Origin: Sulfurimonas sp.
GTDB taxonomy: Bacteria > Campylobacterota > Campylobacteria > Campylobacterales > Sulfurimonadaceae
DNA length: 11,291 nt
Direction of reading: 5' to 3'
NCBI GenBank assembly: GCA_021107375.1
Contig: JAIOSY010000040.1
Location: 1-11,291 of the forward strand
Under the pieces are notes generated by a model. The model was not told where the DNA came from, made no database searches, and saw only the letters and a program-made list of their open reading frames with translations. The position numbers and the translations under genes are program-made. This document shows, one piece after another, positions 2,103 through 11,291 of the stretch; the stretch's first letter is position 1, and the number at the start of each line of letters is the position of its first letter.

Positions 2103-3773
2103 ATGCAAATGAATAGAATATTTTTATTTTTAATATTGGGATCAATCGCTGCATTCGCAGGTGGTGCTATTGAGGGTGTAGTTGAAAAACAATCTCTAAA
2201 TATGTCTGCAATTGTTATGTTTGTGATTTTTGTTGGGGCTACTTTAGGTATCACTTATTGGGCAGCTAAAAGAACAAAATCTGCAAAAGATTTTTATACT
2301 GCTGGTGGTGGAATTACTGGTTTTCAAAATGGTATGGCGATAGCTGGTGATTATATGTCAGCTGCTTCATTTCTAGGTATTACAGGACTTGTATATCTTA
2401 AAGGTTATGATGGTCTTATCTACTCTATCGGTTTTTTAGTTGGATGGCCAATTATCCTTTTCTTGATTGCTGAGCCTTTAAGAAACTTAGGTAAATATAC
2501 TTTTGCTGATGTTGCTGCTTATAGACTTCGTCAAACTCCTATCCGTACACTTGCTGCATCTGGCTCTATTGCAACTGTAATTTTATACCTTATTGCACAG
2601 ATGGTTGGTTCGGGTAAACTTATCCAGCTTCTATTTGGTCTTGAGTATGAGGTGGCAGTTATTTTAGTTGGTGTGTTGATGATGCTTTATGTAACATTTG
2701 GTGGTATGCTTGCTACTACTTGGGTACAGATTATTAAAGCATTTCTTCTGCTTTCAGGTACAACATTTATGACTATTGCTGTTATGACACATTATGACTT
2801 TAGTTTTGCGTCACTGTTTTCACATGCGACTGAACTTAAAGGTATCGAGATTATGAGTCCAGGTGGATTGGTTTCTGACCCTGTTTCTGCCATTTCACTT
2901 GCCGTCGCTCTGATGTTTGGTACAGCGGGTTTACCACATATTTTAATGAGGTTTTTTACAGTAAGTGATGCTAAAGAAGCTCGTAAATCAGTTTTTTATG
3001 CAACTGGTTTTATCGGTTATTTTTATATTTTAACTTTTATTATGGGCTTTGGTGCTATCGTACTTGTTTTTCAAAATCCAGAGTATTTAGATTTAGCTAA
3101 ACAAGCTATTAATGGTGGTTCTCCAATTCTTGGTGGAAATAATATGGCTGCAATTCACTTGTCACATGCCGTTGGTGGTGATTTCTTCTTAGGCTTTATT
3201 TCAGCTGTTGCTTTTGCTACGATTTTAGCTGTTGTATCTGGTTTAACACTAGCTGGTGCATCTGCAATCTCTCATGACCTTTATGCTTCGGTATTTAAAA
3301 AAGGGAATGCTGATTCTATGGCAGAGATGAGAGTATCTAAAATTGCAACTATATGTTTAGGTCTTACTGCAATTATTTTAGGTATTATGTTTGAGAAACA
3401 AAATATCGCATTTGTTGTTGGTCTTGCTTTTGCTATTGCAGCTTCAGCTAACTTCCCAGTTCTTTTTCTTTCAATGTACTGGAAAAAACTTACAACTCGT
3501 GGAGCAGTTATTGGTGGTTCATTAGGACTGGCAACTGCTGTTTTACTTGTAATACTTGGTCCAATTGTATGGGTAGATATTTTAGGAAATGCAGAAGCAA
3601 TTTTTCCTTATAAATATCCGGCATTATTCTCTGTGACAGTTTCATTTGCATCTATCTGGTTCTTCTCAATTACTGATAAATCTCATGATGCACAAAAAGA
3701 GATTGAAGCTTTTGAGGCTCAATATATTAGAAGTCAAACTGGTATCGGTGCTGAGGGTGCGTCAGAACACTAA
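2103..3773 (+). CDS. actP: Cation/acetate symporter ActP (SSS family)
   Basis: The product is 556 residues, close to the 549 of E. coli ActP, and matches it along the whole length from memory. It is a sodium:solute symporter-family inner-membrane protein that takes up acetate and similar short carboxylates. A hydrophobic N-terminal segment (about 1-20) corresponds to the signal-like segment of E. coli ActP and is followed by many membrane helices. Visible landmarks are [17 protein letters not shown] (67-83), [11 protein letters not shown] (82-92), [44 protein letters not shown] and the C-terminal [12 protein letters not shown] 2103 is preferred over ATG 2109 because AAGGA (2091-2095) is better spaced for it. 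It follows the DUF485 gene with no gap. Acs, which uses the imported acetate, is encoded three genes downstream on the same strand. Confidence 0.96.
3163..3170 (-). repeat. GGCATGTG motif copy, inside actP
   Basis: CACATGCC on the plus strand is the reverse complement of GGCATGTG. It is a single copy inside the actP coding region, encoding part of SHAVGG. It is one of nine exact copies in the window. Confidence 0.6.
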
Positions 3774-3785
3774 TATCTATTAATC

Positions 3786-3838
3786 TTGGCATGCGGAAGT
3801 CCTCCTTGGTTGAGGGTGGGAATAAATCCACATGCCAA
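3786..3838. repeat. 53-bp imperfect inverted-repeat element ending in TTGGCATG arms
   Basis: The left arm TTGGCATGCGG (3786-3796) pairs with the right arm CCACATGCCAA (3828-3838) with one C/A mismatch. One more pair follows inside (A3797 with T3827). The interior can form a second small stem, CCTC (3801-3804) with GAGG (3812-3815). The same arms, with a much shorter interior, occur at 8266-8293. The element fills most of the gap between actP and the DUF294 gene and probably forms an RNA hairpin there, modulating downstream expression or mRNA processing. No T-run follows it. Confidence 0.75.
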
Positions 3839-3845
3839 CAAATAC

Positions 3846-3849
3846 GGAG
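3846..3849 (+). promoter_or_regulatory. Ribosome binding site fixing the DUF294 start
   Basis: GGAG lies 8 bases before TTG 3858. The upstream in-frame TTG 3786 is the first base of the repeat arm and has no comparable site, so the start at 3858 is strongly preferred. Confidence 0.75.
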
Positions 3850-3857
3850 TAATTATT

Positions 3858-5672
3858 TTGAGTATTTTAGACCAAAGAAAACTTATCGAGTCTATACATC
3901 CTTTTGAGTTATTAAGTAGTTCTACTCTTGATGGTTTAATGAATAAAATAGATATTGCTTATTATCCTAAAGATACACTTTTAATCTCTAAAAATCTTCC
4001 TTCAATTGCTTTTTATATAATTATTAAAGGTTCTGTAAATGAGATTATTGATGATGAAATTCATAATGTTTATATTTCTGGAGATAGTTTTGATGCAGAT
4101 AGTTTAATTTACTCCAAATGTGATAGTAAGTTTGTAGTTGATGAAGATTTGATTTGTTATGAGATAAAAAAAGATGACTTTCTTGAACTAATGCAAAACA
4201 AAAAAGTACAAGGGTACTTTTTATCAGACTTTATATCTAGGCATAAACATTTAAAAGAATATGATGCAGGTGGTGATTTAACACCATTTTTAATTTCAAA
4301 AGTTTCAGATATATTTTTACATTCGGCATGTGTAGTGGATGGGGATGAAACTATATATGATTCTTTGATAAAGCAAAAAGATTTAAAATCAAAAATTATT
4401 ATTGTAAAAGATGATGATAATTATTCTGTTGTAACAGATACTGATTTAAGAGATAAAGTTCTTTTAGGTGATATTAGTATTAATGACAATATTAAGAGGG
4501 TTGCAAGTTCTGGAGTTATTAGCATAGATATAAATGATTTTTTATTTAATGCTCTTTTAATTATGACACATAGTGAGATAAAAAGGTTAGTTGTAACAGA
4601 AGATAAAAAAATAGTTGGTGTTTTAGAACAGCTAGATTTACTTAGTTATTTTGCAAATCATTCACATCTTGTTGCAGTTCAAATAGATAAGGCAAATAGT
4701 TTAGAAGATTTAAAAAATCTTCAAAATGATTTACGAAATCTAATTGTAACTTTAAAATCAAAAGGTGTAAAAGTAAGATATATCACAAAACTTGTTTCAG
4801 CTTTAAATTTAAAAATTTATAAAAAAGTTTTTGAGATGTGTATTGATGAAAGTTTAAGAGATAAATGTGCTTTAATTGTGATGGGAAGTGAAGGTAGAGA
4901 AGAACAAACTACAAAAACCGACCAAGATAATGCTTTAATAATTAAAGATGGTGTTGATACAAATCTTTTTGTAGAACCAATGATAAAATTAAATAAAGCT
5001 TTACTAGAGATTGGCTTTCCAAAGTGTGATGGTGATGTGATGGTTAGCAATGAGTTTTGGCGAAGAGATGTCTCATCTTTTAAAAAGTTAATAAACTCAT
5101 GGTCAACGAGTATGAGTGAAAAAAGTGTACAAGAGTTAAGTATATTTTTGGATTCTAAATATGTCGCTGGAGATGAGTTATTATTAAAAGAATTACTTAT
5201 ATACTTACATAGAACTTTTCACAATAGAGATGATATTTTAGCTCATATTGCAAAAGCTGTTTTGAATTTTGAAACACCTTTATCACTTTTTTCAGGTTTT
5301 GTTCTTGAAAAAGAGTATAACAATAAGCTTGACTTGAAAAAAGGTGGAATTTTTGCTTTAGTTCATGGTGTCAGAACCTTGTCTCTGCAGTACGGAGTTG
5401 AAGCTACAAATACCATTGAGAGAATTAAAGAGTTAAATAATTTAGGAATTATAGATAAGAATTTTGCAACTGAATTGATAGAAAGTTTTGATTCTTTATC
5501 GGCTATTCGTCTTGGGGCTATGCTTGAATCTTGTGATATAAATCAAAGTAATTATATAAATCCAAAGAGTTTAGAAAAAATTCAAAGAGATTTATTAAAA
5601 GATAGTTTTAAAATCATAAATAAATTTAAAAAGTTTATGAGTTTTCATTTTCATTTAGAGATGGTAAGTTAG
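3858..5672 (+). CDS. cNMP-binding/CBS/DUF294 nucleotidyltransferase-like protein
   Basis: The product from TTG 3858 is 604 residues starting MSILDQRKL. A frame extension upstream to 3786 would only translate the repeat element. Domains in order: a cyclic-nucleotide-binding-like fold (about 10-125, with YYPKDTLLISKNLPSIAFYIIIKGSV), a pair of CBS domains (about 150-268, containing VVTDTDLRDKV and VVGVLEQLDLL-like segments), and a DUF294 nucleotidyltransferase-like domain with GSEGREEQTTKTDQD at 343-357. The last part (about 450-600) fits the DUF294 substrate-binding C-terminus. The GS/D-x-D pattern is that of the GlnD-like nucleotidyltransferase superfamily, so transfer of a nucleotide to a protein is possible, but no substrate is known to me. 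Genes of this type commonly neighbour an exonuclease plus actP/acs, suggesting a sensory or regulatory link to acetate metabolism. The stop is 2 bases from the next gene. Confidence 0.88.
   Translation: MSILDQRKLIESIHPFELLSSSTLDGLMNKIDIAYYPKDTLLISKNLPSIAFYIIIKGSVNEIIDDEIHNVYISGDSFDADSLIYSKCDSKFVVDEDLICYEIKKDDFLELMQNKKVQGYFLSDFISRHKHLKEYDAGGDLTPFLISKVSDIFLHSACVVDGDETIYDSLIKQKDLKSKIIIVKDDDNYSVVTDTDLRDKVLLGDISINDNIKRVASSGVISIDINDFLFNALLIMTHSEIKRLVVTEDKKIVGVLEQLDLLSYFANHSHLVAVQIDKANSLEDLKNLQNDLRNLIVTLKSKGVKVRYITKLVSALNLKIYKKVFEMCIDESLRDKCALIVMGSEGREEQTTKTDQDNALIIKDGVDTNLFVEPMIKLNKALLEIGFPKCDGDVMVSNEFWRRDVSSFKKLINSWSTSMSEKSVQELSIFLDSKYVAGDELLLKELLIYLHRTFHNRDDILAHIAKAVLNFETPLSLFSGFVLEKEYNNKLDLKKGGIFALVHGVRTLSLQYGVEATNTIERIKELNNLGIIDKNFATELIESFDSLSAIRLGAMLESCDINQSNYINPKSLEKIQRDLLKDSFKIINKFKKFMSFHFHLEMVS
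4325..4332 (+). repeat. GGCATGTG motif copy, inside the DUF294 gene
   Basis: This is an exact GGCATGTG within the coding sequence, near the start of the first CBS domain (encoding SACVV). The flanking context is TTC before and TAG after, so it matches the core but not the full 11-mer. Confidence 0.6.
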
Positions 5673-5674
5673 CA

Positions 5675-6286
5675 ATGTTTGGCATGTGGAGTAATTTCAA
5701 GAAAAAGAGAAATCTGTTAAACTTGAATAATCTAGAATTTGAATTTTTATTTGAAGAAAATCAAAATGATGAATATATTGTATTTGATACTGAAACTACA
5801 GGCTTAAATCCAAAAGATGATGAGATTTTATCTATCGGTGCTGTTAAGATTAAAGGCAATAAAATTATTACCTCTGAGACTTTTGAAGTTTATGTTAAAA
5901 ATTCTAAGGAGATAAATGCGAAGAGTATTGAGATACACGGAATTAGAGAGTGTGATTTAAAAAATGCTACAGATGTAGAAGAAGCGATTGAAGATTTTTT
6001 ACATTTTATTGGTTCAAGACCATTAATAGGTTACTATTTAGAGTTTGATGTTGCAATGATTAACAAGTATATTAAACCAATGTTTGGAATTACATTGCCA
6101 AATAAGATGATAGAGGTTTCTGAGATTTATTTTGAAAAAGAGATTACTTTGATACCACAAGGAAATATTGATTTACGCTTCGATACAATCTTAAAAAATT
6201 ATGATATTCCCAATATGGGAGTACACAATGCTGTAAATGATGCCATTATGACAGCGATGATATATTTAAAATTAACAACAAAATAA
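5675..6286 (+). CDS. DEDDh-family 3'-5' exonuclease (DnaQ/epsilon-like)
   Basis: The product is 203 residues. After a basic N-terminal extension of about 33 residues it shows the three exonuclease motifs. ExoI is FDTETTGL with D38 and E40. ExoII lies in LIGYYLEFDVAMINKY. ExoIII is HNAVNDA with H184 and D189. These are the metal-binding acidic residues and general-base histidine of the DEDDh class, so a 3'-5' exonuclease on DNA, RNA or nucleotides is expected. It is too short and too divergent at the N-terminus to be called the replicative epsilon subunit. It starts 2 bases after the DUF294 stop with only a weak ribosome site, suggesting reinitiation; ATG 5684 is an alternative start. The first codons overlap a TTGGCATGTGGAG motif. 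The gene is commonly paired with DUF294 proteins in acetate loci; its role there is not established. Confidence 0.88.
   Translation: MFGMWSNFKKKRNLLNLNNLEFEFLFEENQNDEYIVFDTETTGLNPKDDEILSIGAVKIKGNKIITSETFEVYVKNSKEINAKSIEIHGIRECDLKNATDVEEAIEDFLHFIGSRPLIGYYLEFDVAMINKYIKPMFGITLPNKMIEVSEIYFEKEITLIPQGNIDLRFDTILKNYDIPNMGVHNAVNDAIMTAMIYLKLTTK
5679..5691 (+). repeat. TTGGCATGTGGAG motif copy at the exonuclease start
   Basis: This 13-base stretch is identical to 8266-8278. It overlaps the second to sixth codons of the exonuclease gene (encoding FGMWS). No matching opposite arm lies nearby, so it is a single-arm copy. Confidence 0.65.
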
Positions 6287-6301
6287 AATTAAGGAAGAAT
6301 A

Positions 6302-8254
6302 ATGTCAGAAAAACAAGTTTTTAATCCAAATCCAGAGTTTTCAAAAAATGCTCGTATAAAAAATATGGATGAGTATAATGCTCTTCAAAATAAAGCTATG
6401 AATGATTATGAAGGTTTTTGGGGAGATTTTGCTAAAGAGAAGATAGATTGGATAGAACCGTTTACAAATACTTTAGATGAGTCTAATTTTCCATTTGTAA
6501 AATGGTTTGAAGGTGGAAAGTTAAATGTTTCTACTCAGTGTATTGACCGTCATTTAGATACTCGTAAAAATAAAGCTGCAATAATTTTTGAGGGTGATAG
6601 AGGTGATGTTCAAACAATTACATATCTTGACCTTTATAAAAATGTAAACAGATTTGCGAACCTTTTAAAAGAGGATTTTGGAGTTAAAAAAGGTAATAGA
6701 GTTGTTATCTATATGCCAATGATTCCTGAAGCTGCTTATGCGATGTTGGCATGTGCGAGAATAGGTGCTATTCACTCTATCGTGTTTGGTGGATTCTCAA
6801 GTGAGGCTCTTAAAGATAGAATCATTGATGCTGAGGCAAAAGTAGTTATTACTGCTGATGGGGCATTTAGAAAAACTAAGCCATATATGTTAAAACCAGT
6901 TGTTGATGCTGCACTTGAGGGTGAAACTCCAGTTGAGAAAGTTCTTGTTGTTGAGAGAAATAATGAAGATGTTACTTGGGTAGCAGGAAGAGATTACTCT
7001 TATAATGAACTAATTAAAGATAAATCAGCAGTATGTGAAGCCCAAGTGATGGATGCGGAAGATCCACTTTTCTTACTTTATACTTCAGGTTCAACGGGTA
7101 AACCAAAAGGGGTTCAACATAACTCTGCTGGGTATATTTTATGGGCTCAAATGACTATGGAGTGGGTTTTTGATGTAAAAGAGAATGATACTTACTGGTG
7201 TACGGCTGATGTTGGTTGGATTACGGGGCATACTTATATAGTTTATGGACCTTTAGCTATGGGTGCAACTACTGTAATGTTTGAGGGTGTTATCACTTAC
7301 CCTGATGCTGGTCGTCCTTGGGCAATGGTTGAAAACCATAGAATTAACCAATTTTATACAGCACCTACTGCTATTCGTGTTTTACATAAAATGGGTGAAG
7401 ATGCACCTGCAAAATATGACCTTTCAAGCCTTAAAGTTCTTGGAACAGTTGGTGAGCCGATTGATCCACCTGCTTGGAAATGGTACTATGAAGAGGTTGG
7501 TAGTTCTAAATGTGCAATCGTTGATACTTACTGGCAAACTGAAACTGGTGGACATGTAGTTTCTCCACTTCCAGGGGCTACACCAATCAAACCGGCATGT
7601 GCAACTTTATCTCTTCCAGGAATAATGGGTGAAATTTTAGATCCTGAGACTGGTGTGAAAGTTGGAGTAGGTGAGAGTGGTTATATGTGTATCACGAGAC
7701 CTTGGCCTTCAATGATTCGTGGTGTATGGGGTGATGAGGAAAGATTTGTAAAATCATACTTTGGTGATGTTAAAAAAGATGGTAAGCCAGTTTATTTTAC
7801 GGGTGATGGTGCAAACTATGATAATGATGGTTATATAACTATCACTGGTCGTACTGATGATGTTATCAATGTATCTGGACATAGAATGGGAACTGCTGAG
7901 GTTGAAGCAGCTATCAAAAAACACTCAAATGTAGCTGAGGTTGCCGTTGTTGGTAAACCACATGAACTTAAAGGTGAGGGTATTTTTGCTTATGTTGTAC
8001 TAAAATCTGATGATGGTGTAGCTGATGAGGTTGAAGAGGTTAAAATTATTAACAATATTATCAAAAAAGAGATAGGAAATATTGCTCTTTGTGATGATAT
8101 GGTTTTCGCTCCTGGACTTCCAAAAACTCGTTCAGGGAAAATCATGAGAAGAATCCTTCGCTCAATAGCTAAAGGTGAAAAAATTACTCAAGATATATCA
8201 ACTCTTGAAGATCCTTCTGTGGTTGAGAAAATAAACTCTATGGTAAATAAATAA
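6302..8254 (+). CDS. acs: Acetyl-CoA synthetase (AMP-forming)
   Basis: The product is 650 residues, against about 652 for E. coli Acs. It activates acetate with ATP to acetyl-AMP and then to acetyl-CoA in the cytoplasm. It belongs to the ANL superfamily: an N-terminal Acs cap ([18 protein letters not shown]), the ATP-phosphate loop [10 protein letters not shown] (261-270), the substrate and adenine motif [10 protein letters not shown] (408-417, with W411 likely setting the small acyl pocket), the FTGDGA hinge region with D502, [13 protein letters not shown], and the C-terminal [11 protein letters not shown] with catalytic K613. That lysine is the one acetylated in Pat/CobB-type control in other bacteria. 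The start ATG has AAGGAAG at 6291-6297. It is the last gene of the acetate block; the gap to the exonuclease is 15 bases, and a terminator-like hairpin follows the stop. Confidence 0.97.
6746..6755 (+). repeat. TTGGCATGTG motif copy, inside acs
   Basis: This is a ten-base match to TTGGCATGTGG, followed by C instead of G. It encodes part of the conserved MLACARIGA segment of Acs, so protein constraint may contribute to this copy. Confidence 0.55.
7594..7601 (+). repeat. GGCATGTG motif copy, inside acs
   Basis: This is an exact GGCATGTG encoding part of KPACATLSL. It is preceded by CC rather than TT. Confidence 0.55.
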
Positions 8255-8265
8255 TATTTTTATTC

Positions 8266-8301
8266 TTGGCATGTGGAGATTCCCACATGCCAACACTTTT
8301 T
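8266..8301 (+). terminator. Perfect 11-bp hairpin after acs, likely terminator
   Basis: TTGGCATGTGG (8266-8276) and CCACATGCCAA (8283-8293) are perfect reverse complements around AGATTC. The stem is followed by CACTTTTT (8294-8301). It lies 11 bases after the acs stop and before the separate pyrF promoter, which fits an intrinsic terminator. The stem consists of two opposed copies of the repeated GGCATGTG motif. Confidence 0.75.
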
Positions 8302-8305
8302 AAAA

Positions 8306-8314
8306 TGCTATAAT
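8306..8314 (+). promoter_or_regulatory. Extended -10 promoter of pyrF
   Basis: TGCTATAAT is a perfect extended -10 (TGnTATAAT). Transcription should start near 8321, about 20 bases before the pyrF ATG. No -35 is obvious, as is normal in Campylobacterota. The -10 follows directly after the acs hairpin and T-run. Confidence 0.75.
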
Positions 8315-8341
8315 TTCATAACTAAAATATAAAGAGAAACT

Positions 8342-9025
8342 ATGGAATTATGTGTTGCCCTTGATTTACCCACAAAACAAGAAAATTTAGACTTAATTAA
8401 AAAAATACAAAACTATGATGTTTGGCTAAAAGTTGGACTTCGTACTTATATTCGTGATGGTGAAGAATTTCTAAAAGATATTAAAAAAATAAACCTTGAT
8501 TTTAAAATATTTTTAGATTTAAAACTTTATGATATTCCAAATACTATGGCTGATTCTGCTGAGTCTATTATGGGCCTTGGTGTTGATATGTTTAATGTTC
8601 ATGCTTCAGCTGGAAAAAGAGCTATGAGTGAAGTTATGAGCCGTTTAGAGAAGTATGAGACTCGTCCTATAGTTTTAGCTGTAACTGCTCTTACATCATT
8701 TACAGAAGAAGAGTTTACAGAAGTATATGAAAAAGGGATAGATGATAAAGCTAACCAATTCGCAAAAGATGCAATGGATAGTGGACTTGATGGTGTAGTG
8801 TGTTCTGCATTTGAGAGTAAATCTATCAAAGGTATCACTTCAAAAGAGTTTATGACTTTAACTCCTGGAATCCGTCCCTTTGGTGAAGATGCAGGTGATC
8901 AAAAAAGAGTAGCAGATATTAGTTTCGCAAAAAAAGCGCTTGTAGATTTTATAGTTGTAGGTCGTCCTATTTATCAATCAGAGAATTCAGCAGAAGTAGT
9001 TAAAAAGATTTTAGAAAAGATTTAA
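8342..9025 (+). CDS. pyrF: Orotidine 5'-phosphate decarboxylase
   Basis: The product is 227 residues, the usual size for bacterial PyrF. It converts orotidine monophosphate to UMP, the last step of UMP synthesis in the cytoplasm. Visible family residues are CVALDLP with D8 near the N-terminus, LKVGL with K30, the catalytic array DLKLYDIPNT with D59, K61 and D64, LTPGIRPFG, GDQKRVA and the phosphate-binding FIVVGRPI near the C-terminus. The start is set by the leucine-rich N-terminus and a weak AAAGAGA upstream (8331-8337). It is transcribed from its own promoter and is functionally unrelated to the acetate genes. Its stop codon overlaps the end of the convergent LapG-like gene by 4 bases. Confidence 0.97.
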   Translation: MELCVALDLPTKQENLDLIKKIQNYDVWLKVGLRTYIRDGEEFLKDIKKINLDFKIFLDLKLYDIPNTMADSAESIMGLGVDMFNVHASAGKRAMSEVMSRLEKYETRPIVLAVTALTSFTEEEFTEVYEKGIDDKANQFAKDAMDSGLDGVVCSAFESKSIKGITSKEFMTLTPGIRPFGEDAGDQKRVADISFAKKALVDFIVVGRPIYQSENSAEVVKKILEKI

Positions 9026-9648
9026 TGATTTTTTCTAATTTTTTTCATAAGTTCGTTATATTGTTTTGATTGATGAGCTATTTTTTTTAGATTATAATTT
9101 TTATCTATTTTAAAAACACCAGTTGAGTTTATAAAAATATCTGCCTTAATATCTTCTCTTGTTTTGAGGTCTAAAACTCTAAAACTTAGATTGTCTAAAA
9201 TAAGTGGTGGTTTGTTTTTATCTTTAAAATAACTAAGAACCATATGGTATCCACCTTGATATTGTTCAAAAACAGTTGTAAGAAACAGTTTTTTTTTATC
9301 AAAACCAAGTTTTAAAAGTGTAAAATATTTTATAATTACATAATCTTCACAATCTCCATAGCCAGCTATCAAAAACTCTTTTGGTGTTGCCCAGTAATCT
9401 TCTTGTTTTTGTATAATATCATCGTATTGAGGTAGTAGTTGATTTAGGTAGTGATTAACTGCATTTAGCTGTTTTGTTTCATTATATGTTTCAAAAATAG
9501 TTATATTTTTTTGATAATCCATAGCTCTATTTTTAGGAATTTTACCTGATCTTTTTTCTATTTTTATAAATTCATTTTGTGTAAAATATGGGTATTCTGA
9601 AGCATATAAAAAAAGTGGTATAAAAGTTAAATAAAATATTTTTTTCAT
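9022..9648 (-). CDS. lapG: LapG-type transglutaminase-like periplasmic cysteine protease
   Basis: The product is 208 residues. It has a signal peptide (MKK, hydrophobic run, likely cleavage after LYA at about 16), so it acts in the periplasm. The body fits the bacterial transglutaminase-like cysteine protease family (BTLCP, peptidase C93). WATPKEFLIAGYGDCEDY contains catalytic C100, GGYHMVL contains H135, and PLILDNL contains D152. D99 and E101 flank the cysteine as in calcium-binding LapG proteins. LapG cuts the N-terminal part of LapA-type adhesins and releases them from the surface when c-di-GMP is low. A retention-module adhesin begins on the opposite strand, 325 bases away across a tRNA gene, and is the obvious candidate substrate. 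An in-frame stop three codons upstream fixes the start at 9648. There is no Shine-Dalgarno sequence. Confidence 0.9.
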   Translation of the reverse strand: MKKIFYLTFIPLFLYASEYPYFTQNEFIKIEKRSGKIPKNRAMDYQKNITIFETYNETKQLNAVNHYLNQLLPQYDDIIQKQEDYWATPKEFLIAGYGDCEDYVIIKYFTLLKLGFDKKKLFLTTVFEQYQGGYHMVLSYFKDKNKPPLILDNLSFRVLDLKTREDIKADIFINSTGVFKIDKNYNLKKIAHQSKQYNELMKKIRKNH

Positions 9649-9653
9649 ATAAA

Positions 9654-9659
9654 ATTATA
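9654..9659 (-). promoter_or_regulatory. Possible -10 box very close to the lapG start
   Basis: Read on the minus strand, CACTATAATTTTATATG places a perfect TATAAT 5 bases before the start codon. If it is used, transcription would begin at or near the ATG and the mRNA would be leaderless, which agrees with the lack of a ribosome binding site. A promoter further upstream is equally possible in this AT-rich stretch. Confidence 0.35.
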
Positions 9660-9731
9660 GTGAAATAATTGCTATTTAAAAAACTTTTATATAAAGAATT
9701 TATTTTAAGCTATATATTATGAATTAATGAT

Positions 9732-9737
9732 TATAAT
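9732..9737 (+). promoter_or_regulatory. -10 promoter of tRNA-Ser
   Basis: A perfect TATAAT lies 14 bases before the first base of the tRNA, predicting a start near 9743-9746 and a short 5' leader. No recognisable -35 is present. Confidence 0.6.
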
Positions 9738-9740
9738 TTC

Positions 9741-9851
9741 AATCTTCAAATGGAGAATTGGGTGAGTGGCTGAAACCACATCCCTGCTAAGGATGCGTAT
9801 GGGTAACTGTACCGAGAGTTCGAATCTCTCATTCTCCACCACTTGAAGATT
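9741..9851 (+). repeat. 9-bp inverted repeat flanking the tRNA
   Basis: AATCTTCAA (9741-9749) and TTGAAGATT (9843-9851) are perfect reverse complements. They lie two bases outside the mature 5' end and one base after the CCA. In a precursor RNA they would extend the acceptor stem, which may assist folding or processing. The predicted transcription start would remove the first few bases of the left arm. Confidence 0.5.
9752..9841 (+). tRNA. tRNA-Ser (anticodon GCU)
   Basis: The acceptor arms GGAGAAT (9752-9758) and ATTCTCC (9831-9837) pair perfectly. The anticodon stem CATCC/GGATG holds the loop CTGCTAA, giving anticodon GCT, which reads AGC and AGU serine codons. A long variable arm, as expected for tRNA-Ser, precedes the T arm GAGAG-TTCGAAT-CTCTC. 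CCA is encoded (9839-9841). The base before CCA is A, where bacterial serine tRNAs usually have G. Confidence 0.96.
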
Positions 9852-9895
9852 CTATTTTCCCACAAATTTTTATTAATGCAAATAATATTAACCTA

Positions 9896-9918
9896 ATTGT
9901 ACTCAAGTACAATATACT
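9896..9918 (+). promoter_or_regulatory. Inverted repeat and -10 box upstream of the adhesin
   Basis: ATTGTACT (9896-9903) and AGTACAAT (9906-9913) are perfect 8-bp reverse complements around CA. A -10-like TATACT follows at 9913-9918, overlapping the last base of the repeat. This arrangement fits an operator for a dimeric regulator covering the promoter spacer. The transcription start would be near 9925, leaving a leader of about 50 bases before the adhesin start. The remainder of 9842-9973 is AT-rich with nothing else clear. Confidence 0.45.
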
Positions 9919-9973
9919 CTTTTTAAAAACTATTGTAATATCTTCTAATTAATAATTTATTTAGGGGTGTATT

Positions 9974-11291
9974 ATGTCAGAAGTAATAGGAAAAATATCA
10001 AGTTTAGATGGTAAGTTTTATGTAAAATTGAGTGACGGTTCATTTAATGAGATTTCTCATGGTGATGAAATTTATGAAGGTGATATTGTTGTTGGTGATA
10101 AAAATAATATTTCTATTGATAGTATTAGAATTGATTTAGATAATGGTAGTAATGTTATTGTGTATGGAAGTGAAACACAGTTGTTTGACTCTTCTTTATA
10201 TTCTGAGGAGTTTGCTGAAAATGAAACAGTTTCTGATTCTGAATCTATTGAAGCGATGTTTAATTCTGAAAATACTGAAGCTATAGTTGATGAAGATGTT
10301 GAAGATATAGATGAAGTAGAAACAGAAGCAGGAGAAGAATCTGGTTCGGAATCAACAGAGGGTGGTGAAGCTCAATTTGCAACCATGAGTGGTGGAATTG
10401 TTGATATAAATGCTGATCTTCGAGAGAGAGAATTTGATAACAATATTGATAGTAAAAATATTGAAATAGAAAATGTTTATGTTGATTCAGTTTTGGACTC
10501 TCTAAGTGCAGATATTGTAAACCTTTCAGATAGTGGAAGTTCAGATAGTGATAATATTACAAATGATACAACTCCAACAATAACAGGTTTAACTGAATCA
10601 GGTTCAACAGTAATAATTACAGATGCTTCAGGAAATGAAATTGGAAGAACGATAGCAGATGGCAGTGGTAATTTTACAATAACAACTACTGAATTGGATG
10701 ATGGAACTCAAAATTTAAATATCACTGCAACAGATACAGCTGGAAATACAAAATCAATTATTCAAGAAATTACAGTAGATACAACTACAACTAACTCAGT
10801 AGAATTTACTGATGAGAGTGGAGATGATGTAGTGAGTGCTAGCGAAGTTTTAATAACTGATATTTCAGGAAATATAGAGATTGGTTCAAGTATTAATTCT
10901 TTAACTATAACAGATGGAACAAATAGTGTAGTAATAGATGTAAATGACATAACTTTAAATGAAAATGGCAGTTATAATATAGACAATGTAGACTTGAGTT
11001 CATTAAACGATGGAGAACTCAGTGTAGAAGTTATTTCGACAGATATAGCTGGAAATCAAACTAGTTCAATAGATACAATTCAGAAAGATACTGTGGTTGA
11101 TTCATTAAGTATAGATAATGTAGTTTCAAACGAGGCTGGAGATGAAGCAACAGTAACTGGAAACACAGAGCCACATGCCAAAGTTGAATTAACATTAGAA
11201 GATGCAAATGGTGTAAAAGATACAGTAGAGGTAACAGCAGATGATAAAGGTGATTACTCAATCACATTTGATACATCAGCTATGAAAGATG
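9974..11291 (+). CDS. LapA-like retention-module adhesin with Ig-like repeats, 5' part
   Basis: An uninterrupted frame of 439 codons runs off the right edge. The ATG has AGGGG (9963-9967) six bases upstream. Residues 1-75 (VIGKISSLDGKFYVKLSDGS, then GDEIYEGDIVVGD, ending ETQLFDSSL) match the N-terminal retention module that plugs type I-secreted adhesins in the outer membrane. Residues 76-135 are a very acidic linker. Residues 136-195 contain GGIVDINADLREREF. Ig-like repeats follow at about 198-271, 272-371 and 372-439, with repeated motifs such as DTTPTITG, TDTAGN, TDIAGN and TGNTEPHAKV. The C-terminal repeats and type I secretion signal must lie beyond the window. There is no N-terminal signal peptide, as expected for type I secretion. 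A LapG-type protease is encoded nearby and probably releases this protein. Confidence 0.88.
   Translation, partial: MSEVIGKISSLDGKFYVKLSDGSFNEISHGDEIYEGDIVVGDKNNISIDSIRIDLDNGSNVIVYGSETQLFDSSLYSEEFAENETVSDSESIEAMFNSENTEAIVDEDVEDIDEVETEAGEESGSESTEGGEAQFATMSGGIVDINADLREREFDNNIDSKNIEIENVYVDSVLDSLSADIVNLSDSGSSDSDNITNDTTPTITGLTESGSTVIITDASGNEIGRTIADGSGNFTITTTELDDGTQNLNITATDTAGNTKSIIQEITVDTTTTNSVEFTDESGDDVVSASEVLITDISGNIEIGSSINSLTITDGTNSVVIDVNDITLNENGSYNIDNVDLSSLNDGELSVEVISTDIAGNQTSSIDTIQKDTVVDSLSIDNVVSNEAGDEATVTGNTEPHAKVELTLEDANGVKDTVEVTADDKGDYSITFDTSAMKD
11171..11181 (-). repeat. TTGGCATGTGG motif copy, inside the adhesin
   Basis: CCACATGCCAA on the plus strand is the exact reverse complement of TTGGCATGTGG, identical to the right arms at 3828-3838 and 8283-8293. 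It encodes part of EPHAKV in the third Ig-like repeat. Confidence 0.65.

Follow-up and report, generated by a model that had tools for sequence, protein, structure and literature searches.

A CATGT-core octamer repeated throughout a Sulfurimonas genome as a candidate DNA-uptake-type signal

The DNA considered here, called the window throughout, is the whole of contig JAIOSY010000040.1 (11,291 nucleotides; C32 in our numbering) from a Sulfurimonas metagenome-assembled genome (MAG; G000) of 1.66 Mb in 316 contigs that is 72% complete. By Pfam, its genes encode an OprD porin, a DUF485 protein, a sodium:solute symporter that we take to be of the actP type, a DUF294 protein, an exonuclease, acetyl-CoA synthetase (acs), pyrF, a BTLCP peptidase and a Big-domain protein; a tRNA-Ser gene is also present. 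The closest named record by DUF294 protein is another Sulfurimonas MAG, AUK118 (L039), at 96% identity. Recurring within this stretch is an octamer, GGCATGTG, which a sequence-only reading of the window had singled out as a candidate DNA-uptake-type signal. It occurs nine times (five plus, four minus), as compared to a mean of 0.17 and a maximum of 2 in 200 dinucleotide shuffles, none of which reached nine. Every position and strand given for these copies by the sequence-only reading was recovered, as were its two near-copies, and its hand estimate of 0.1 expected copies is near the computed value. The copies, and two hairpins formed by them, are as follows.

3163..3170, minus strand: exact GGCATGTG in the actP-type symporter gene; site shared by 5 of 45 aligned genes, ungapped in the rows shown.
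3829..3836, minus strand: exact copy, in the form TTGGCATGTGGA, between the symporter gene and DUF294.
4325..4332, plus strand: exact copy in the DUF294 gene; site common to 3 of 47 aligned genes.
5681..5688, plus strand: exact copy, in the form TTGGCATGTGGA, at the start of the exonuclease gene; window alone among 34 aligned genes, with the start poorly aligned.
6748..6755, plus strand: exact copy, first acs site; present in 11 of 41 aligned genes.
7594..7601, plus strand: exact copy, second acs site; present in 7 of 41 aligned genes.
8268..8275, plus strand: exact copy, left arm of the inverted pair 3′ of acs.
8284..8291, minus strand: exact copy, right arm of the same pair.
11172..11179, minus strand: exact copy, in the form TTGGCATGTGG, in the Big-domain protein gene.
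3788..3795, plus strand: near-copy GGCATGCG, which pairs with the copy at 3829 as a stem in the fold.
2821..2828, minus strand: near-copy in the symporter gene (the plus strand reads CACATGCG).
8266..8293: terminator-like hairpin, 11-bp perfect, from the inverted pair 3′ of acs; folding energy as RNA −18.9 kcal/mol (z −5.9), reached by none of 200 shuffles.
3786..3838: longer hairpin from near-copy and copy, 3′ of the symporter gene; folding energy as RNA −24.4 kcal/mol (z −2.95), reached by 2 of 200 shuffles.

Read by eye, the longer form TTGGCATGTGG is complete in five of the nine copies (3829, 5681, 8268, 8284 and 11172), as had been stated. Homology of relatives to DUF294 begins at 3858, as compared to a TTG at 3786, and if the gene indeed starts at 3858 the copy at 3829 is intergenic. 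Six copies then lie within five genes (symporter, DUF294, exonuclease, acs twice and Big-domain protein) and three between genes; the earlier placement in five genes and in inverted pairs is kept, while the copy at 3829 would move to a spacer.

The excess extends far beyond the scale of the window. Throughout G000 the octamer was found 650 times (327 forward, 323 reverse), as compared to 6 times (3 + 3) for the reversed word. It is the top octamer in 206,878 unmasked bases of this genome, with 135 copies observed where counts of tetramers and trimers predict 1.06, and 13 unmasked contigs chosen regardless of hits contained 38 copies in 67,366 bases, with at least one copy in 10 of them. Two outcomes had been named beforehand as telling against the proposal, namely a genome-wide count close to expectation and confinement to a few repeats plus codon-constrained motifs, and neither occurred. 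The consensus, TTGGCATGTGGA, spans about 12–13 bases, its neighbours being weaker, with little information beyond about +13. In G034, a relative rich in the word, the decamer GGCATGTGGA has 181 exact copies and 45 one-mismatch forms (7.2 expected), of which 41 differ at positions 1, 2, 9 or 10, and variants internal to CATGTG are nearly absent. The G000 sample gave 60 exact and 68 one-mismatch decamers, 58 of the latter at positions 9 or 10; G019, a comparison genome lacking GGCATGTG, gave 0 and 14, respectively.

The layout of copies was studied in a single 290-kb contig of G034, with genes predicted by a home-made caller. Its 209 copies are divided between the strands as 105 and 104, and 95 of 208 neighbours are like-oriented. 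Close pairs (within 60 bases) number 27, of which 21 are inverted. While 156 copies lie wholly in genes (0.57/kb), 47 are wholly intergenic (2.52/kb) and 6 span a boundary, such that the word is 4.4 times denser between genes; spacer density is 6.8/kb for convergent, 2.4/kb for tandem and 1.0/kb for divergent neighbours. The inverted-pair hairpins may thus act as terminators, as the folds predicted in the window suggest. The longest word-free gaps measure 13.5 and 10.2 kb. The first crosses an apparent S10/spc ribosomal operon, in which S3 and SecY were confirmed; the second is an island that encodes a C5 cytosine methylase and a phage integrase, with a further integrase match scoring below cut-off.

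The manner in which copies arise can be read from the aligned genes. At the first acs site the same residues are encoded by other codons in aligned genes without a copy; single copies of this kind also occur in the acs of L072 and the DUF294 gene of L052, both word-poor loci, and the first acs copy is missing from the word-bearing locus L048. Judging from these alignments, copies in conserved genes (actP, DUF294 and both acs sites) originate by base substitution in place. The exonuclease site, where the gene start is poorly aligned, is uninformative on origin.

The word is restricted in its distribution. Within the genus we surveyed 135 genomes and termed word-rich those with at least 100 copies: 19 contained 109–1668 copies of GGCATGTG, and the remaining 116 contained 2–69. 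Across 397 genomes of the class, GGCATGTGG exceeded 50 solely within the window's genus, the next being genus g19 of family f2 with a maximum of 37; in that genus it is mildly over the reversed control (about 12–37 versus 0–4). On a protein tree of symporter, DUF294 and acs (45 loci), at least 6 changes are needed for the 11 word-bearing loci, which form two separate groups, one comprising the window and L039. The nearest sister locus, L041, has no copy of the word in 19.9 kb.

Elsewhere in the genus, related words occupy comparable positions. The spacers 3′ of the symporter and acs genes are orthologous and hold inverted pairs of each locus's local word: TTGGCATGTGGA in the window and in L048, L050, L059, L064 and L066; TTGACATGTGGA in L042; TTACATGTAGA and TTGACATGTAGA in L043; CCGACATGTAAG in L086; CTTACATGTAAG in L078; and TTACATGTAAG, another word borne by other species at the same terminators. 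Most remaining loci have unrelated hairpins or none in those spacers. At the orthologous terminators and in the related words the CATGT core is retained while the flanks vary by species, and CATGT is the commonest arm pentamer of perfect hairpins (26 of 134, 16.8-fold) in 113 sequences, some of which were chosen for the word. One related word, TTACATGTAA, is a palindrome. Nine of the 135 genus genomes have at least 100 copies of it (104–425), and the 19 genomes rich in GGCATGTG have 0–14, except for G131 with 43. Mutual exclusion of the two words is not claimed: they never both attain 100 copies in one genome, yet only about 1.3 such genomes would be expected by hand calculation (19 and 9 of 135). 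GACATGTAG attains 100 copies in G065 and GACATGTGG 62 in G132, and several other genomes have smaller excesses. Among 298 genomes sampled class-wide, family f10 stood out, with 107–1496 copies of TTACATGTAA in 15 of the 17 genomes sampled from it; two genomes of genus g4, which belongs to the window's own family, had 367 and 48, and beyond these two families the count was 0–9. The seven ACATGT sites in 10 kb from a single f10 genome are all embedded in TACATGTAA, and in f10, which includes G372 (L250), TTACATGTAA, with TTTACATGTAAA in many copies, reaches about 1500 copies per genome. Taken by their sequences, these words look like dialects around a CATGT core.

Further dispersed and strongly over-represented words were seen, namely AAACGCAG/CTGCGTTT (L144 from G074, L071 and L068) and TGCGTGAG (L119 from G012 and L124 from G017). 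Both were set aside as dialects, as they appear codon-linked: two gene-relative frame classes hold 16 of 19 copies of AAACGCAG in L144 and 13 of 17 in L071, and 15 of 19 copies of TGCGTGAG in L119 and L124. This frame-class criterion is weak because GGCATGTG itself has 67 of 97 copies in two classes; these words are probably codon-linked and may be further word families. TGAGGGTG was rejected, as by eye it reflects Glu-Gly codons.

We favour, as the probable reading, that GGCATGTG, in its fuller form TTGGCATGTGGA, serves this lineage of Sulfurimonas as a DNA-uptake-type signal, independent of the DUS of Neisseria and the USS of Pasteurellaceae, and is one dialect of a CATGT-core family in Campylobacterota, because its abundance, strand balance, in-place origin, terminator pairs, absence from the integrase island and core dialects match the words of Neisseria and Pasteurellaceae. 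The sequence-only proposal is in this respect upheld in its genomic pattern, while the receptor that it would call for was not found in the searches described below. In such a mechanism, the competence machinery would include a receptor with a preference for word-bearing DNA, ComEC would import one strand, as it is known to do, and recombination would swap resident alleles for word-bearing ones, so that copies would build up in place at all sites where the protein or the spacer can accommodate them. Intergenic inverted pairs would double as the terminator hairpins predicted by folding, and drift in receptor specificity would change the flanks around the core and thereby give rise to dialects; the flank pattern itself is seen in the genomes. 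A broader and more tentative proposal, which we regard as possible, is that this represents a third, independent origin of uptake-signal words, with CATGT-core dialects in at least two families of the order, ranging from the palindromic TTTACATGTAAA to the one-sided TTGGCATGTGGA, and read by a putative competence receptor whose species-shifting specificity would set the partners for gene exchange.

By gene content, uptake machinery exists in the genus. The comEC gene (PF03772) was found in 123 of 135 genomes, including G054, which has 831 copies of the word and an acs 95% identical over 587 residues, and pilins were found in all 27 genomes searched. A ComEA-sized HHH_3 protein was detected in 6 of 12 word-rich genomes searched, including G000 and G054. 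In nine genomes compared, a pilin beside a priA-like gene lies about 7–10 kb from comEC, and in L230–L249 and L151 a pilin pair or trio adjoins the priA-like gene and, where the stretch reaches, flgB/flgC-like genes (names given by eye). The first pilin of this locus has a highly variable C-terminal part. The locus looks like a competence pilin locus. G034 also encodes a cluster resembling a type II secretion system (T2SS; L203:4733–14894), with secretin, ATPase, inner-membrane protein and pseudopilins, in which Pfam T2SSE, Secretin, T2SSF and T2SSG score above cut-off and GspC weakly. We presume this cluster to be comparable to the Campylobacter competence apparatus. All 11 word-rich genomes that are at least 90% complete encode an orthologue of its secretin (E below 1e-100), as do 2 of the 8 less complete ones (G063 and G123, not G000, G054, G055, G095, G108 or G117). 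This secretin occurs in 4 of 9 genomes rich in TTACATGTAA (not G002, G069, G077, G082 or G092) and in many word-poor genomes as well, such as G001, G012 and G013.

Several observations weigh against the uptake reading. The suggestion that competence genes be sought was borne out insofar as comEC is present in 17 of 19 word-rich genomes, but the gene does not track the word, being about as common elsewhere (106 of 116); the two word-rich genomes in which no comEC was found are G000 (72% complete) and G132 (99% complete). The ComEA-sized HHH_3 protein was not found in G034, G061, G066, G067, G095 or G132. As a receptor, the pilin beside the priA-like gene was rejected, since it does not follow the word (20 genomes; 221 of 500 shuffles as low), and the T2SS-like secretin is not the determinant because it is neither required for nor specific to the word; a receptor was therefore not found among these two candidates. 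Spacing in G034 is no more even than random (coefficient of variation 1.11 versus 0.81–1.09), and no bias to gene ends was seen, unlike that reported for Pasteurellaceae uptake signal sequences (USS; PMC2346458). One-mismatch forms, scarce in G034 as given above, outnumber exact DNA uptake sequences (DUS) in Neisseria species (PMC3630211). Moreover, a dialect history that follows phylogeny is complicated by the occurrence of GGCATGTG in two separate clades of the tree, and TACATGTA has no intergenic excess in G019 (0.37/kb in genes, 0.40/kb between).

Some of these same observations would suit a genome-wide site of another DNA-binding or DNA-modifying protein, such as a solitary methyltransferase or a repair or nucleoid protein, comparable to cyanobacterial HIP1 and with no role in uptake. 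This explanation, though unlikely, stays alive because there is a palindromic dialect, abundant in another family and without intergenic enrichment in G019, because the core is as sharp in G034 as for a strict recognition site, and because competence genes do not co-vary with the words. However, GGCATGTGG is non-palindromic, denser between genes and able to make inverted pairs, and species differ in the flanks around a kept core. Far from being favoured, CATG itself falls somewhat short of expectation in each of the eight sets that were compared (0.66–0.85), and this avoidance is too mild to be taken as a cause.

A one-direction signal for replication or segregation, of the Chi or FtsK-orienting polar sequence (KOPS) type, would resemble the word in length, abundance and in-gene location (as for Chi), but we consider it very improbable. 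The even strand counts and mixed neighbour orientations of the 290-kb contig lack the polarity that it implies, as had been argued from the balanced orientation in the window, and the word forms inverted pairs and is missing from most species of the genus. More improbable still is that the copies belong to a mobile repeat dispersed by insertion, a view for which the many intergenic inverted pairs might speak; ungapped and often synonymous codon alignments at four in-gene sites refute insertion there, and conservation ends at about 13 bases. We give equally little credence to the excess as a by-product of codon usage or of a protein motif, for although 100 of the 156 coding copies in G034 fall into two of the six frame classes, all six are occupied (68, 32, 23, 14, 11 and 8), intergenic density is higher, and Ala-Cys, which is encoded by the word at 32 of 82 occurrences in G034, is written otherwise in G019 (1 of 43), such that codon bias is refuted as the sole cause.

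Other repeats and avoided words were encountered along the way. Raw octamer lists were dropped after their contexts were read for L053 (CRISPR-like array), L063 and L069 (tandem repeats) and L149 (repeated protein units); the array, at L053:20444–21809, comprises 19 near-identical repeats spaced about 72 bases. ACGT is nearly absent from the G000 and G034 samples (0.08 and 0.10 of expectation) and not from G031 (0.65), and GATC and GGCC are likewise strongly avoided, which suggests restriction-modification pressure.

Among the top matches in the open-licence literature, preprints not included, we recognised no report of GGCATGTG or TTACATGTAA, nor of uptake words in Sulfurimonas, Campylobacterota, Epsilonproteobacteria or Sulfurospirillum. 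If the uptake reading is true, a case from a distant phylum with several dialects in one genus would mean that uptake words evolve repeatedly, would offer many genomes to compare in the search for receptors and for the way in which dialects switch, and would suggest that sulfur-oxidising bacteria in the environment undergo natural transformation.

Comparison with known systems places the word beside, and not within, the described families. HIP1 of cyanobacteria is an abundant in-gene palindrome and in this resembles TTACATGTAA, unlike GGCATGTGG, which is non-palindromic with intergenic inverted pairs. TTGGCATGTGGA belongs to neither the DUS nor the USS, because neither family's core is present. 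Like the DUS of Neisseriaceae, which are 10–13-base words with hundreds to thousands of copies in genes and terminator inverted pairs and with fixed-core dialects, two of which can overlap as a dyad in one species, it is abundant and varied around a core (PMC3630211). According to the same source CTG is kept throughout the DUS dialects, whereas neither TTGGCATGTGGA nor its complement contains CTG; here the core is CATGT, the phylum is another and one-mismatch forms are few in G034. The DUS are recognised by the minor pilin ComP; a ComP-like receptor was not identified here, no comparison with ComP having been made. Similarly, the Pasteurellaceae USS are abundant and non-polar, with in-gene and paired copies and types that have a common inner core (PMC12616744), but the present word has no GCGG core, no spaced downstream AT-rich tracts and no gene-end bias. 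From the same phylum comes CtsM/RAATTY-based uptake in Campylobacter jejuni, in which self-DNA is selected by a short motif and the mark is adenine methylation of that motif (PMC10046745), whereas in Sulfurimonas the mark would be the abundance of a 9–12-base word.

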